64,000 nucleotides of DNA, from contig NZ_CP032418.1 in assembly GCF_003595195.1 (NCBI RefSeq), positions 1,190,501 to 1,254,500 on the forward strand, written 5' to 3'. Below are positions 1,646 to 6,188 of this stretch, one piece after another. The notes under the pieces were generated by a model. The model was given only the letters and a program-made list of their open reading frames with translations. It did no database searches and had not been told where the DNA came from. Numbering within the stretch: position 1 is the first letter of the stretch; every line of letters begins with the position of its first letter. Source of the DNA: Paenisporosarcina cavernae (GTDB lineage: Bacteria; Bacillota; Bacilli; Bacillales_A; Planococcaceae). A program made the translations under genes and the position numbers.

Positions 1646-1690
1646 AAAAGATGATCTCCTGATTCGTTAGGAGATCATCTTTTCTTTTTT
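1646..1690. terminator. Bidirectional terminator between CAP gene and MATE gene
   Basis: A perfect 15-bp stem (1646-1660 with 1669-1683) has an 8-nt loop and a T-rich tail on the plus strand; A residues on the left give a T run on the minus strand. It overlaps the last codons of the convergent MATE gene, so one hairpin serves both genes. Confidence 0.85.
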
Positions 1691-3025
1691 GCGTTGAATT
1701 CGATGTAGTCGAACGGATAACGTAATAGCTCCAATGGTTAGACCTGCTATTAAACCAATCCAGTATCCGAATGGCCCGTAATTTGTAAAGTTTGCAAAGT
1801 AATATCCAACTGGTAAGCCAATGACCCAATAAGAAATGATTGCCATGATAAACGTAACATTTACATCTTTATACCCTCTTAGTGCCCCTTGAACAGGTGC
1901 TTGAATAGCATCTGAAAGCTGGAATAGCGCTGCGTAAAGGAAAAATTGTATAGTAATAGGAATCACTTCCTGATCCGATGTATAAATGGTGGAAATGGGT
2001 TCTCGGTAAAAATACAAGATGGCTGCTGATAAACCACTAAAAACGATTGCGGAGCTTACAGCAAGTCGACTATACGTTTTTGCACCAGCAACATTATTTG
2101 CTCCCAGTTCATTCCCAATTAACACGGTTGCTCCGAATGAAATACTTAAAGGAACCATATAAAGTAAAGAAGTGAAATTTAAAGCGATTTGATGAGCCGA
2201 AATGACGGCAGTAGAGTAAGTACTCATAAGAAGCGTAACAGCCGCAAATATACTTGTTTCCGCAAAAATGGATAATCCAATTGGAACACCTATTGAAAGA
2301 ATTTCCTTCCATTTTTTTAGTTGAATTTTACTCCAATGAGTAAACAAGTAATAGGAAAGGAAGGGCTGTTTCGTATGTATGACATACATCGAAATGCCAA
2401 GTACAATCCAATAAGTGATAGCAGACGCCACACCTGCTCCTATTCCTCCGAGTTCAGGAAATCCCCAATTACCGAAAATAAAAAGATAATTAAAAAAGAC
2501 ATTAATAGGCGCAGAGAGTAACGTGATAAACATCGTGATTCTCGTCATACCAAGCCCATCCATATAGGAACGGAGTACGCTATAGACAAATAGTGGAACG
2601 ATACCTATTAACAAAGACTGAATGTATCGAAGAGATACATGAGATACTGCTTCTTCAATTGGCATTTTCGATATAATGATCGGAGAGACTAAGAATAAAA
2701 GAAATGAAATAACAATCGATAACAAAAGTGCTACATATATACCTTGCTGAACCATTCGCTTTATTTCCTGCTTGTTCTTCGCTCCATTTAAATGTGCTAC
2801 AATGGGAGTTATGCCAACTAGGATTCCAGATAAGCCAGTATAAACGGGCATCCATATAGAAGAACCTACTGCTACACCAGCTAAATCGACACTTCCATAC
2901 CGACTGCTCATGAGAATATCAAAAAATGTAATTAAATACATAGCAACTTGAGTGATTAAAATAGGAGTAGTAACTTTCAGCATAGTACGCAGTTTGTGGG
3001 TAAGGTGTGAAGATGTTTCAATCAT
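1667..3025 (-). CDS. MATE-family multidrug/cation efflux transporter
   Basis: About 452 residues with roughly twelve hydrophobic helices in two homologous halves, the MATE (NorM/YeeO-like) fold. Members export drugs or metabolites in exchange for Na+ or H+. Family-like features include the N-terminal PILITQ segment, the YMDGLGMT loop around residue 160 and the PVQGALRGYKD segment in the second half. An in-frame TTG at 3043 would add six residues, but it lies inside the Shine-Dalgarno AAGGAGAAGG (3031-3040), which is correctly spaced for the ATG at 3025. It is a single gene whose substrate cannot be read from sequence. Confidence 0.88.
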   Translation of the reverse strand: MIETSSHLTHKLRTMLKVTTPILITQVAMYLITFFDILMSSRYGSVDLAGVAVGSSIWMPVYTGLSGILVGITPIVAHLNGAKNKQEIKRMVQQGIYVALLLSIVISFLLFLVSPIIISKMPIEEAVSHVSLRYIQSLLIGIVPLFVYSVLRSYMDGLGMTRITMFITLLSAPINVFFNYLFIFGNWGFPELGGIGAGVASAITYWIVLGISMYVIHTKQPFLSYYLFTHWSKIQLKKWKEILSIGVPIGLSIFAETSIFAAVTLLMSTYSTAVISAHQIALNFTSLLYMVPLSISFGATVLIGNELGANNVAGAKTYSRLAVSSAIVFSGLSAAILYFYREPISTIYTSDQEVIPITIQFFLYAALFQLSDAIQAPVQGALRGYKDVNVTFIMAIISYWVIGLPVGYYFANFTNYGPFGYWIGLIAGLTIGAITLSVRLHRIQRKKEKMIS

Positions 3026-3110
3026 GATAGCCTTCTCCTTCAAGTGAAAATAATGCTAAGTATACCACAATTAAAATGCATCGAAGATGTTGGAAAAGGA
3101 GTTTAATTAA

Positions 3111-4181
3111 ATGAAGAAAAAAATTGCCTTAACTGGAGGAGGAACTGCTGGACACGTGTCCTTAAATCAAGCAATCATTCCTTCGTTAATCGAGAATAAT
3201 TACGAAGTTATGTATATAGGTTCTAGAGATGGGATTGAAAAAGAACTAATCTCTGAAAATTTTCCCACATTACCTTACGCTTCGATTTCGAGTGGAAAAC
3301 TAAGAAGGTATTTTTCACTTGAAAATATTTCCGATTCATTTCGTGTGGTCAAAGGTGTATTCGATAGTATTCAAATACTTATAAAAAACAAGCCGGACGT
3401 CATTTTTTCCAAAGGTGGATTCGTTTCTGTTCCTGTAGCTATTGCTGCAAAATTATTGCGGATTCCTCTCTTAATACATGAATCGGATGTTACTCCTGGA
3501 CTTGCAAACAAAATTGCCATGCCTTTTGCGAAACACATTTTTACCGTATTTCATGAAACATTGGAATATGTTGATCAGTCAAAAGCAACCTGTTCCGGCG
3601 CAGTCATTCGAGAAGAATTGCTTGTTGGGAATCGATTAAACGCTCTAAAAAAAGTAGGGTTTTCTGGCAATAAAGCCGTGCTGTTTGTAATGGGAGGGAG
3701 TCAAGGCTCGGATGTTTTAAATGGAGCAATACGAAGCAATTTATCCATTCTCCAAAACACGTATGACATAATTCACCTTTGCGGAAAAGACAAAGTGTCG
3801 AAGGAACATCAATTCATTGATGGGTACGTTCAAATAGAATATGTTTCAGAAGGGTTAAATGACTTGTTGCATCTGGCCGATGTTGTCGTATCGAGAGCGG
3901 GATCCAATTCCATTTATGAATTTTTAGCATTACGAATTCCAATGCTATTAATACCTCTTTCTGCCCAAAAAAGCAGAGGAGATCAAGTGTTAAATGCGCA
4001 GCTTTTTGAAAAGCAAGGGTTTGCGTTAGTCTTACAAGAAGAAGAATTATCACCAGAAGCATTCTTAGAAAAAGTGCAACAATTAGAAGAGAGAAAGTCT
4101 CATATGCGACAAGTAATGGAACAATCAGAAATGCCTAAGACTCCTCGACAAATGGTAGAGCTGATAGAGAAATATCAATAA
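3111..4181 (+). CDS. murG: MurG, lipid II-forming GlcNAc transferase (orphan copy)
   Basis: This enzyme transfers GlcNAc from UDP-GlcNAc to lipid I at the inner face of the membrane, giving lipid II. It is 356 residues, a normal MurG length, with the GT-B fold. Motifs are GGGTAGH at 9-15 (phosphate loop; GGGTGGH in most MurG), HESD at 123-126, GGSQG at 195-199 and RAGSNSIYE at 262-270 (UDP-GlcNAc site). It sits alone, outside any dcw cell-wall cluster. This resembles the Staphylococcus-type MurG or the second MurG found in some Bacillales. Whether another murG exists cannot be seen here. Confidence 0.85.
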   Translation: MKKKIALTGGGTAGHVSLNQAIIPSLIENNYEVMYIGSRDGIEKELISENFPTLPYASISSGKLRRYFSLENISDSFRVVKGVFDSIQILIKNKPDVIFSKGGFVSVPVAIAAKLLRIPLLIHESDVTPGLANKIAMPFAKHIFTVFHETLEYVDQSKATCSGAVIREELLVGNRLNALKKVGFSGNKAVLFVMGGSQGSDVLNGAIRSNLSILQNTYDIIHLCGKDKVSKEHQFIDGYVQIEYVSEGLNDLLHLADVVVSRAGSNSIYEFLALRIPMLLIPLSAQKSRGDQVLNAQLFEKQGFALVLQEEELSPEAFLEKVQQLEERKSHMRQVMEQSEMPKTPRQMVELIEKYQ

Positions 4182-4379: not shown

Positions 4380-4931
4380 TTACATTGCTTGTTCTTCTTC
4401 TGTTTGTTCGTATATGGCAACAGTCGAGAAGATAAATAAATCCTTCGGTATTTGATACAGCACATATTCATGCTCTCCGCGGTTAATCTCCTCTAATAAA
4501 GCAGGATGCGAGTCGTGTGCAAGAGTGGTGTATGGCAACTTTTCTGCTGCTCGAATGGATTTCACGTTATGTTTTTTAATTCGTAAAAAGACGGTTTGAA
4601 TAGAATGTTGGAAAAATAGTTCTTCTAGAAATTCTAGTTTTGCTTTTTGATTATAACCCTTTCCTTGAAAAGGTTCTCCTATCCAAGTGCCGAGAAATCC
4701 AGCATTATCTTGTATGTCGTATAAATTGATAGTTCCAATAGGCATTCCAAAATCGTCCGTGATTGTGCGGGAAATTACATTACCTTGTTCTTCTTCTTCC
4801 ATCAATTGTTTCGTCATGAACATGAATTCTTCTGCGGACGCCGCTTTTTGTCGGACAAACGGGAAGACAGATGGGTGAGAAATTAAGTCAAATAGGGAAG
4901 AACAATCTTGCAGATCTCTTTTTTTCAACAT
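4380..4931 (-). CDS. GNAT-family N-acetyltransferase (RimJ/RimL-like)
   Basis: A 183-residue protein with the GNAT fold. A strand region around PIGTINLYDI is followed by the acetyl-CoA loop EPFQGKGYNQKA (a Q/R-x-x-G-x-G/A variant), then a LRIKKHNVKSIRAAEKL segment typical of RimJ/RimL-type enzymes. They acetylate amino groups of proteins or small molecules; the acceptor cannot be inferred. GGAGG at 4941-4945 is well spaced for the ATG. Upstream lies an unusually long structured region (4953-5099), described separately, so expression may be controlled by an RNA leader. Confidence 0.8.
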   Translation of the reverse strand: MLKKRDLQDCSSLFDLISHPSVFPFVRQKAASAEEFMFMTKQLMEEEEQGNVISRTITDDFGMPIGTINLYDIQDNAGFLGTWIGEPFQGKGYNQKAKLEFLEELFFQHSIQTVFLRIKKHNVKSIRAAEKLPYTTLAHDSHPALLEEINRGEHEYVLYQIPKDLFIFSTVAIYEQTEEEQAM

Positions 4932-4952
4932 AAAAAAACGCCTCCATTACTC

Positions 4953-4986
4953 AGGGGCATTTAAGCATGCGAAAAGCAATGCCCCT
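4953..4986 (-). promoter_or_regulatory. Leader hairpin just upstream of the GNAT ribosome binding site
   Basis: AGGGGCATT (4953-4961) pairs with AATGCCCCT (4978-4986), a perfect 9-bp stem. Read on the minus strand it ends a few bases before the GGAGG of the GNAT gene. There is no T run directly after the stem, so it is not a classical terminator. Its GGGG half is also needed by the competing upstream stem. Confidence 0.5.
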
Positions 4987-5024
4987 CGAAATTTTTCATT
5001 TTAATTGCATAAAAAATTTCGGGG
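4982..5024 (-). promoter_or_regulatory. Competing long stem in the GNAT leader
   Basis: On the minus strand CCCCGAAATTTTT (5024-5012) pairs with AAAAATTTCGAGGGG (4996-4982): 13 to 14 bp with one bulged A and a 15-nt loop. It uses the GGGG of the downstream hairpin and the CCC of the upstream tRNA-like acceptor arm, so the three structures exclude one another, as in a switch. No known riboswitch class was recognised. Confidence 0.45.
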
Positions 5025-5081
5025 TGGGAATCGAACCCACTAGAACCAGTAATTGGTGGCGCACCATTTGCCTTCCCTAAC
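5016..5081 (-). pseudogene. tRNA-like cloverleaf or degenerate tRNA
   Basis: Read on the minus strand, the 66 bases divide as follows: 7-base acceptor GTTAGGG, AA, D-stem GGC/GCC with loop AAATGGTGC holding a GG pair, 3-bp arm ACC/GGT with 7-base loop AATTACT, TCTA, T-arm GTGGG-TTCGATT-CCCAC, acceptor CCCGAAA and a T. The T-arm and T-loop are canonical. The acceptor pairs at 5 of 7 positions. The anticodon arm is too short, lacks U33 and gives no clear anticodon; there is no CCA. It could be a decayed tRNA, an integration-site remnant or a tRNA-like regulatory domain. A covariance-model scan would decide. Confidence 0.35.
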
Positions 5082-5219
5082 ATCTTTGTTAGTGTTTTGC
5101 ACTATTCTGTTGTATGCATATTTACTATACTAAGATTTTTTTCATTTGAAAAGAAAAATATCTCGAAATTCGAGAAAAAAATCGATATGATTAATGAAAC
5201 AAGTGGAAGGGGAAAAACC

Positions 5220-6188
5220 ATGAAGATATCGTTAAAAAAAATGCATGGCTCAGGTAATACCTTCTATGTTTTATGGACGGAAGATTTTGCTCATTCCCTT
5301 TGGCATGAGATGGCGATAAAGTTATGTTCAACATCGTGGGACGGGGGAGCAGATGGTCTTTTACTCATTTCTTCTTCCGCTTCTGCAGACGTAAAAATGA
5401 CGGTAATAAATGCCGATGGCTCGTATGCGAAAATGTGTGGAAATGGTCTTCGTATTGTTGCGAGGGAAGTGCTTGAAAGCTTAGACGTTCTTCAAGCATC
5501 CATTGAAACGGAAGAAGTAACACTTCATGTGAAAAAGACGACTCCAATATTCGAACAACAAGATGCATTTGCGGTTGAAATAAAACCAATTACATTCTCG
5601 CTCTCTGATATTCCCATGACCTATGGAAATAACGATACATTGATCAATAGCATAATCCCGGAAATACACGATTCGATTCATTTTTCAGTTCTAGCAGTTC
5701 CTAACCCACACTTGGTTGGCCTTGTGCCGATTCAATATATAGAATCTCGTGTATTTCAGGAGAAAATTGGCACACAATTAAATGAAAGTCGCTCGTTATT
5801 TCCAGAAGGTGTCAATCTTAGTTTTATGCATCCTGTAGATGAAATGACCATTTTTGTTCGAACTTTCGAAAGAGGTGTTGGCTTCACGAACGCTTGTGGT
5901 ACTGCTATGTCAGCGAGTGCACTTGTTGCCTATCAGTCAAAACTAGTGGAGAGCACGAAAGTTCGTGTGATTAACCCAGGTGGCTTTGTCGAATGCCATC
6001 TATCAGAAGATCAGCAATCGGTTTTTTTAATAGGAAATGCGTCTTTGATAGAAACGTTAGAGGTTACAATTGGTTCTGATGAAACTATTTCTATTTTGTC
6101 TAAGACCATTGCGCACGATGAAATGGATGACTATGAAAGATGGAAAGATTATGCGGAAAATATGGTGAAACAAAAATGGAGAAAATAG
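5220..6188 (+). CDS. dapF: Diaminopimelate epimerase
   Basis: This cofactor-independent epimerase converts LL- to meso-diaminopimelate for lysine and peptidoglycan. It is 322 residues, somewhat long like the Listeria-type enzymes. The two catalytic cysteines lie in MCGNGLR (Cys73) and NACGTA (Cys226), each at the base of one DapF half-domain. KMHGSGN at the N-terminus and NPGG near the end are family motifs. The usual GxETLACGTG reads GFTNACGTA here, so the residue before the second cysteine loop is divergent. The ATG at 5220 follows GGAAGGGG; an upstream in-frame start at 5097 has no such site and would add unrelated residues. Confidence 0.88.
   Translation: MKISLKKMHGSGNTFYVLWTEDFAHSLWHEMAIKLCSTSWDGGADGLLLISSSASADVKMTVINADGSYAKMCGNGLRIVAREVLESLDVLQASIETEEVTLHVKKTTPIFEQQDAFAVEIKPITFSLSDIPMTYGNNDTLINSIIPEIHDSIHFSVLAVPNPHLVGLVPIQYIESRVFQEKIGTQLNESRSLFPEGVNLSFMHPVDEMTIFVRTFERGVGFTNACGTAMSASALVAYQSKLVESTKVRVINPGGFVECHLSEDQQSVFLIGNASLIETLEVTIGSDETISILSKTIAHDEMDDYERWKDYAENMVKQKWRK

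Follow-up and report, generated by a model that had tools for sequence, protein, structure and literature searches.

A short RNA folded like a tRNA stands at the start of an acetyltransferase message in many relatives of Bacillus, where it probably switches production of the enzyme on and off. Sequence comparison directly yields a conserved cloverleaf leader, its linkage to one gene, covariation within the cloverleaf and, in part of the leaders, covariation of one competing pairing. In the window, the whole stretch of 64,000 nucleotides of Paenisporosarcina cavernae DNA analyzed here, the entire leader RNA spans about 5078–4939 on the minus strand, with the cloverleaf as its 5' part, and adjoins one GNAT acetyltransferase gene, directly upstream of its start. 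The features are as follows, in window coordinates.

5124–5152, minus strand: predicted promoter, TTTTCA, 17 nt, TATAGT (9 of 12 matches, weak alone)
5021–5078, minus strand: tRNA-like cloverleaf (alignment, covariation, relaxed ARAGORN run)
5077–5075 with 5023–5021, minus strand: cloverleaf acceptor, 3 bp (GGG/CCC)
5072–5070 with 5060–5058, minus strand: cloverleaf D-arm
5057–5054 with 5048–5045, minus strand: cloverleaf anticodon-like arm
5044–5041, minus strand: cloverleaf variable region, 4 nt
5040–5036 with 5028–5024, minus strand: cloverleaf T-arm
4988–5020, minus strand: hairpin 1 (GAAATTTTTTAT / ATGAAAAATTTC), with two-sided changes in 10 of 12 pairs over 98 loci
4954–4985, minus strand: hairpin 2 (GGGGCATT / AATGCCCC), the 5' arm of which competes with the cloverleaf in relatives
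4939–4951, minus strand: AGTAATGGAGGCG, the ribosome-binding site GGAGGCG (4945–4939) with its flank, complementary to cloverleaf bases 5061–5048
4380–4931, minus strand: GNAT acetyltransferase gene (183 aa, PF13302), directly 3' of the RNA

Judged from the aligned sequences, the cloverleaf is genuine and forms the 5' part of a conserved leader RNA. The preliminary description had read minus-strand bases 5081–5016 as a cloverleaf, and ARAGORN relaxed to 80% calls exactly those bases; that description is right about the T-arm (GTGGG-TTCGATT-CCCAC) and the D-loop GG, the reported want of a usable anticodon is borne out in that none is readable in the relaxed call and none is conserved in relatives, and the sequence agrees that no CCA follows. 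Its dimensions needed correction: of the acceptor, described as 5 of 7 pairs, only three (GGG/CCC, 5077–5075 with 5023–5021) hold across relatives; the anticodon arm, given as 3 bp, has four pairs here (ACCA/TGGT) and five in most relatives, with a loop of varying length; and the element, rather than ending after 66 nt at 5016, continues through a 12-pair hairpin (5020–4988), a second hairpin (4985–4954) and the ribosome-binding site. With canonical tRNA the leader shares the D-arm, the D-loop GG, the 5-bp T-arm, the T-loop TTCGATT and the 4-nt variable region, and it differs in its 3-bp acceptor, its lack of CCA and its variable anticodon-like loop. The conserved GG and TTCGATT suggest an L-shaped fold with a D-loop/T-loop elbow. 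Identification as a tRNA gene was rejected, there being no 7-bp acceptor stem, no fixed 7-nt anticodon loop and no CCA end, and gene finders and the Rfam tRNA model likewise fail: ARAGORN at default thresholds finds no tRNA in the window, Rfam at gathering scores gives no match in the window, and the best sub-threshold Rfam match on the same strand and bases is tRNA-Sec at 5083–5016 (14.7 bits, E 4, against a gathering score of 47). The 66 nt alone, folded as a single sequence, reach an energy no better than shuffles (z −0.15). The 191-nt leader does fold better than shuffles (z −3.18), via an alternative fold and not the cloverleaf, in which the D-arm strand pairs with the ribosome-binding site. 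The case for the cloverleaf rests on conservation and covariation.

A search of 151 related genomes with the 181-bp stretch gives matches in 36, counting the window's own; 30 of the 36 yielded loci, and 28 of these 30 entered alignments A2 and A3. An alignment of these 28 loci that runs from the core to the ribosome-binding site shows a core with hardly any variation, its 5' side reading (A/T)GGGAAGGCAAATGGTGCG(C/T)CACCA before the anticodon-like loop of variable length and its 3' side TGGT(T/C)CTAGT(G/A)GGTTCGATTCC(C/T)ACCC before a long A+T-rich hairpin. Covariance model R1, made from the leader core only, finds 34 genomes at 83 bits or more among 398 genomes of the class, in 23 genera and 13 GTDB families (counted by hand from the table, and with strict filters that may lose weak matches), together with a separate group of 36 matches at 28–36 bits. 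Among 261 genomes of the window's family 48 reach 52 bits or more, and among 249 sampled genomes of the phylum three match, all within the class and one being the window's own genome. Each of the weaker matches checked (44; 36 of 36 in the class set and 11 of 14 in the window's-family set) overlaps a tRNA gene called by ARAGORN. A model built on leaders and nothing else thus ranks genuine tRNAs directly after them, which supports the tRNA resemblance independently.

Linkage to the acetyltransferase is equally consistent. A GNAT ortholog starts next downstream in all 34 strong-hit genomes (from a by-eye comparison of coordinates). Named genomes scanned with a DNA pattern gave at least 119 matching stretches; among the 80 loci in the matches listed, 79 have a downstream frame with the GNAT N-terminus, and in the remaining one, L172, the locus ends with the gene start present. 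These loci include Priestia megaterium, Bacillus paralicheniformis, Neobacillus, Halobacillus, Virgibacillus and Oceanobacillus as well as Anoxybacillus, Parageobacillus, Psychrobacillus, Rummeliibacillus and Chryseomicrobium. The early observation that the cloverleaf heads a GNAT gene thus extends to relatives, the RNA lying 5' of the same gene wherever the flank was read. The RNA implies the GNAT and not the reverse, since of 101 genomes among the 398 with a GNAT ortholog (E below 1e-50), 67 are without a strong RNA hit; of 25 upstream regions read from orthologs of this kind, four have a decayed-looking T-arm and the others different leaders. In L222, L225, L226 and L229 (genus g14 of the window's family), the GNAT and a window-like Shine–Dalgarno sequence (SD) are kept beside a decayed-looking T-arm (CTAGTTCTTTGGGTTT.AATTCC). 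The GNAT orthologs of L251–L255 and L263 (GTDB family f16) are preceded by a leader of another kind, alike in the six loci read, and the genomes of these loci give no strong R1 match. At Rfam gathering scores, 20 related loci give four matches, one tRNA and three to RF02895 (Staphylococcus sRNA S414), none of them on the RNA; the S414 matches lie near the GNAT at L085:2676–2849, L087:2612–2784 and L098:2641–2808. In L124, L130, L137, L141 and L161 open frames continue from the RNA into the GNAT, with the T-arm read as (V)GSIPTP, and frames extended in this way across the leader would risk false N-termini in annotation.

The preliminary description had proposed a search for covariation in relatives and had allowed that neither conservation nor covariation might be found there; the opposite was found. 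In alignment A4 (98 loci, 89 distinct, comprising 18 of L001–L099 and all of L100–L179), 14 of 28 pairs show two-sided, compensatory changes, compared to 6.7 in shuffles, a count that leans towards the model as A4 was fitted to the model's structure. Compensatory cells number 114, against 28.5 in shuffles and 11–29 in slid versions, and 97.4% of cells pair. The covarying pairs are distributed over hairpin 1 (10), the anticodon-like arm (two) and the T-arm (two), with none counted in the acceptor and D-arm, on which the count says little because both are almost invariant. For the same reason of too little variation the first 28 loci alone are uninformative, their covariation equaling that of shuffles (one pair versus 1.0). 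The leader thereby presents a tRNA-like four-way cloverleaf supported by covariation. Divergent loci L085–L087 break the GGG/CCC acceptor, and a TTAG/CTGA pairing, read by eye and unscored, is possible instead; the extended hairpin 1 is lost in leaders with T-arm CCTAC. Insertions into hairpin 1 occur in L112, L140, L160, L171 and L179, some resembling extra stems.

The element is presumably transcribed as an mRNA leader. The region 4850–5300 holds two promoter-like sites, compared to 1.6 in shuffles, and a generic promoter score over 92 upstream stretches gives no excess over shuffles. A −10-like GTATA(G/T)T, a motif picked after the alignment had been seen, lies 21–59 nt upstream in 28 of 30 related loci, with 0.012 expected per stretch. 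The dapF gene next to it is divergent. The frames at 1667–3043, 3111–4181 and 5097–6188 are a MATE-like transporter (by eye), a MurG-type glycosyltransferase and DapF, and in some of 16 loci read the GNAT again has a MATE-like or MurG-like frame nearby.

Downstream of hairpin 1, most leaders carry a GAGGGTGG-like arm, a CTGCCCTC-like arm and then the SD. The first hairpin-2 arm is complementary to the 3' strand of T-arm and acceptor (CCCACCC), and the second to the first arm or to the SD. The following pairing tests, from which L132 was left out where partners were swapped, sequences shuffled or families compared, give counts and p-values that are optimistic because the sequences are related. 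In leaders with an SD other than GGNGGCG, a leader's own hairpin-2 partner outperforms swapped partners in 54 of 72 (p = 1.4e-8), and 95% of shuffles are beaten by the hairpin-2 arms in 66 of 78, by the anti-SD with the SD in 35 of 78 and by the T-arm strand with the first hairpin-2 arm in 25 of 78. In the GGNGGCG group, which includes the window's leader, the own partner is better in 10 of 13 (p = 0.073), and 95% of shuffles are beaten by hairpin 2 in only two of 14 leaders and by the hairpin-2 arm with the SD in one of 14. Swap tests of anti-SD with SD, T-arm with hairpin 2 and D-arm with SD are not significant, these strands hardly varying. The D-arm strand (GCGCCACC) pairs with the SD at a mean of −10.0 kcal/mol among the 15 leaders from the window's family, compared to −5.6 in 77 others, whereas the hairpin-2 arm pairs with the SD at −4.3 and −9.5 kcal/mol, respectively. 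This contrast was redone by family, with the family of named loci taken from their titles, as grouping by SD is partly circular.

One further competing pairing, between variable region and hairpin 2, covaries. Within leaders that have SD GGNGGCG and a AAAATTTC arm, deduplicated to 32, variable region TCCTAG goes with TAGG in 11 of 11 and TTCTAG with TAGA in 13 of the 15 that have a site (p = 2e-5 by a Fisher test made after the pattern had been seen, with six of the 32 omitted from the table for want of a TAGR site and L019, CTAGAT, counted as A-type by hand). When placed on a tree of 36 GNAT proteins (midpoint root, no support values), at least two of the double changes look independent, and L015 and L017 hold a G-U-compatible intermediate. 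The pairing beats 95% of shuffles in 20 of the 32 leaders and is not significant by the swap test; the window's copy does not beat them (rank 0.49).

We then consider access to the SD as computed for 93 leaders, that is, the 98 minus L090 and L127 (no recognized start), giving 96, and minus three identical ones. The mean unpaired probability of the SD is 0.49 with the cloverleaf forced and 0.19 with it blocked; forcing makes the SD more accessible than blocking does in 70 of the 93 leaders and less accessible in three, and in 23 there is little change or the reverse. Shuffling the linkers lowers the gain from 0.30 to 0.09, and gains above 0.2 are seen in 54 of 93 real leaders versus 106 of 465 with shuffled linkers. 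As a group, the leaders therefore have two mutually exclusive conserved structures, one of which hides the SD, and this is weak in 23 of 93 and in the window's own copy, where forcing the cloverleaf moves SD access only from 0.20 to 0.27 and the covarying variable-region pairing is absent. The alternative in the window pairs 5061–5048 with 4951–4939, a duplex of −13.0 kcal/mol that is part of the minimum-energy fold. Unconstrained minimum-energy folds of the 93 leaders hold the whole cloverleaf in none, no cloverleaf pairs in 31 and the T-arm in 13, and they average 8.8 kcal/mol below the forced cloverleaf, so that a switch would need strong stabilization or kinetic folding. In L135, L141, L142, L147, L158, L166 and L167 a T run lies between the anti-SD hairpin and the start codon, and in these seven loci the arrangement also resembles an intrinsic terminator.

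The covarying alternative pairing and the freeing of the SD by a forced cloverleaf favor the reading that we hold to be reasonably probable, a cis-acting translational ON switch in the 5' leader of the GNAT mRNA in which a stabilized cloverleaf goes with an exposed SD; its ON/OFF sign is that suggested by the modeled folds. Once folded and stabilized, the cloverleaf would occupy the strands of T-arm and acceptor, or those of D-arm, anticodon arm and variable region, upon which hairpin 2 could form and the SD would be exposed (ON). If the cloverleaf is not stabilized, downstream strands would invade it and the SD would be sequestered (OFF). Its partner would then be the 3' arm of hairpin 2 in the majority of leaders, and the D-arm strand GCGCCACC in the majority of those from the window's family. 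Candidate stabilizers are a small molecule or polyamine, a tRNA-binding protein or enzyme, and the ribosome. Such a leader seems, by analogy, to act like the yjdF (azaaromatic) riboswitch, RF01764, without being a member of that class. According to PMC9142559, yjdF is an mRNA leader with a tRNA-like four-way junction that is ON when folded and whose OFF form sequesters the SD via the T-loop strand, its ligand site is the purine-rich J1/2, and some yjdF riboswitches are said to control acetyltransferases. The two are alike as tRNA-like mRNA leaders that are ON when folded (as proposed here for the GNAT leader) and hide the SD when OFF. They differ in that the GNAT leader has a canonical T-arm, joins acceptor and D-arm by only 2 nt instead of the purine-rich J1/2, and would sequester the SD by hairpin 2 or the D-arm strand instead of the T-loop strand. 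Membership of RF01764 was excluded, as neither model finds the other: R1 matches none of 20 yjdF loci and the yjdF model nothing in window positions 4850–5250, both with E allowed up to 10, and at gathering the yjdF model matches none of 20 related loci.

A rival reading is a constitutive translation enhancer or mRNA stabilizer, a fold that would recruit or position the ribosome, or shield the mRNA, with no regulated switching. PMC9142559 reports that tRNA-like elements upstream of the SD raised translation 2- to 6.3-fold relative to a leaderless construct; yet matched changes preserve the competing pairing in some of the leaders, and we regard constitutive action as improbable. Similar doubt applies to autogenous repression by tRNA mimicry, of which E. 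coli thrS is an example, and in which the GNAT or another tRNA-binding protein would bind the cloverleaf and lower translation, folded thus being OFF. That the RNA adjoins this single gene wherever the flank was read would suit such a circuit, as would the affinities of the protein: a profile of 52 orthologs (alignment A5, from 61 kept of 91) run against solved chains ranks MccE first (E 8.8e-8), followed by RimJ/RimL-type and spermidine acetyltransferases, and four of five GNATs scanned match, weakly and well under the cut-off, the NCBIfam model for an IleRS carrying a GNAT domain. MccE acetylates an aminoacyl-nucleotide. The pairing logic is opposite, however, a forced cloverleaf freeing the SD in 70 of 93 leaders, and 67 of 101 ortholog genomes keep the GNAT without a strong RNA hit.

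Less probable still is a polyamine or ion sensor, in which polyamines or magnesium would stabilize the fold and turn on a polyamine-acetylating enzyme. Folding of tRNA depends on polyamines and magnesium, and in a Foldseek search with the structure model of the 183-aa GNAT (mean pLDDT 93.9) the polyamine acetyltransferases SpeG make up most of the best 50 rows listed. Against it, SpeG is only 12–16% identical, FdhC is the first Foldseek row, and the sequence profile ranks MccE above SpeG. The profile points to MccE and the fold search to FdhC and SpeG, so that no single substrate is indicated; the aminoacyl substrates suggested in the preliminary description stay one candidate. The candidate gene name ykwB returned no paper in the open PMC literature. 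A transcript-abundance table for Bacillus methanolicus in PMC4342826 gives a high value for an acetyltransferase, BMMGA3_15110. A decayed tRNA gene or integration-site remnant, as a tRNA-like sequence without CCA or anticodon might be taken for, is hardly credible given the near-invariant core of 28 loci with covariation, the same gene context across many genera and the one high-scoring copy in its own genome (the 181 bp match it once, and R1 exceeds 23 bits there at a single site). A Pfam scan of the GNAT and three nearby frames found none to be a recombinase. Of the three readings first offered, then, the tRNA-like regulatory domain is supported (13 families, covariation, one gene), and decayed tRNA and attachment remnant are not, as far as the copies in the genome and the frames scanned show.

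Two other systems were set apart. T-boxes likewise provide tRNA-linked control in Gram-positive mRNA leaders; they bind tRNA in trans, whereas the GNAT leader is itself tRNA-shaped, and this assignment was rejected, there being no T-box match at Rfam gathering scores in the window nor at the RNA in 20 related loci. The tRNA-Other of Bacillus cereus, as the abstract on it states, flanks a genomic island and responds to iron, and it is distinguished here by that description, which gives it no GNAT-leader role. Among the matches listed from the open PMC literature, none is a tRNA-like leader of a GNAT gene.

If the switch is as proposed, it would be a widespread class of regulatory RNA that Rfam 15 does not match, and it would add to yjdF a further example of a tRNA fold serving as a switch within an mRNA. 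We add a rather unlikely extension: its nearly canonical tRNA core, with no added ligand pocket, might report on the tRNA-handling machinery (a T-arm-modifying or elbow-binding factor, or ribosome sites) and turn on an acetyltransferase acting against aminoacyl-nucleotide or similar translation-blocking compounds, making it a second, independent class of tRNA-shaped switch. The leader opens to experiment the question of how cells sense the shape of a folded tRNA, and it offers a handle on the function of an uncharacterized, widely kept acetyltransferase.
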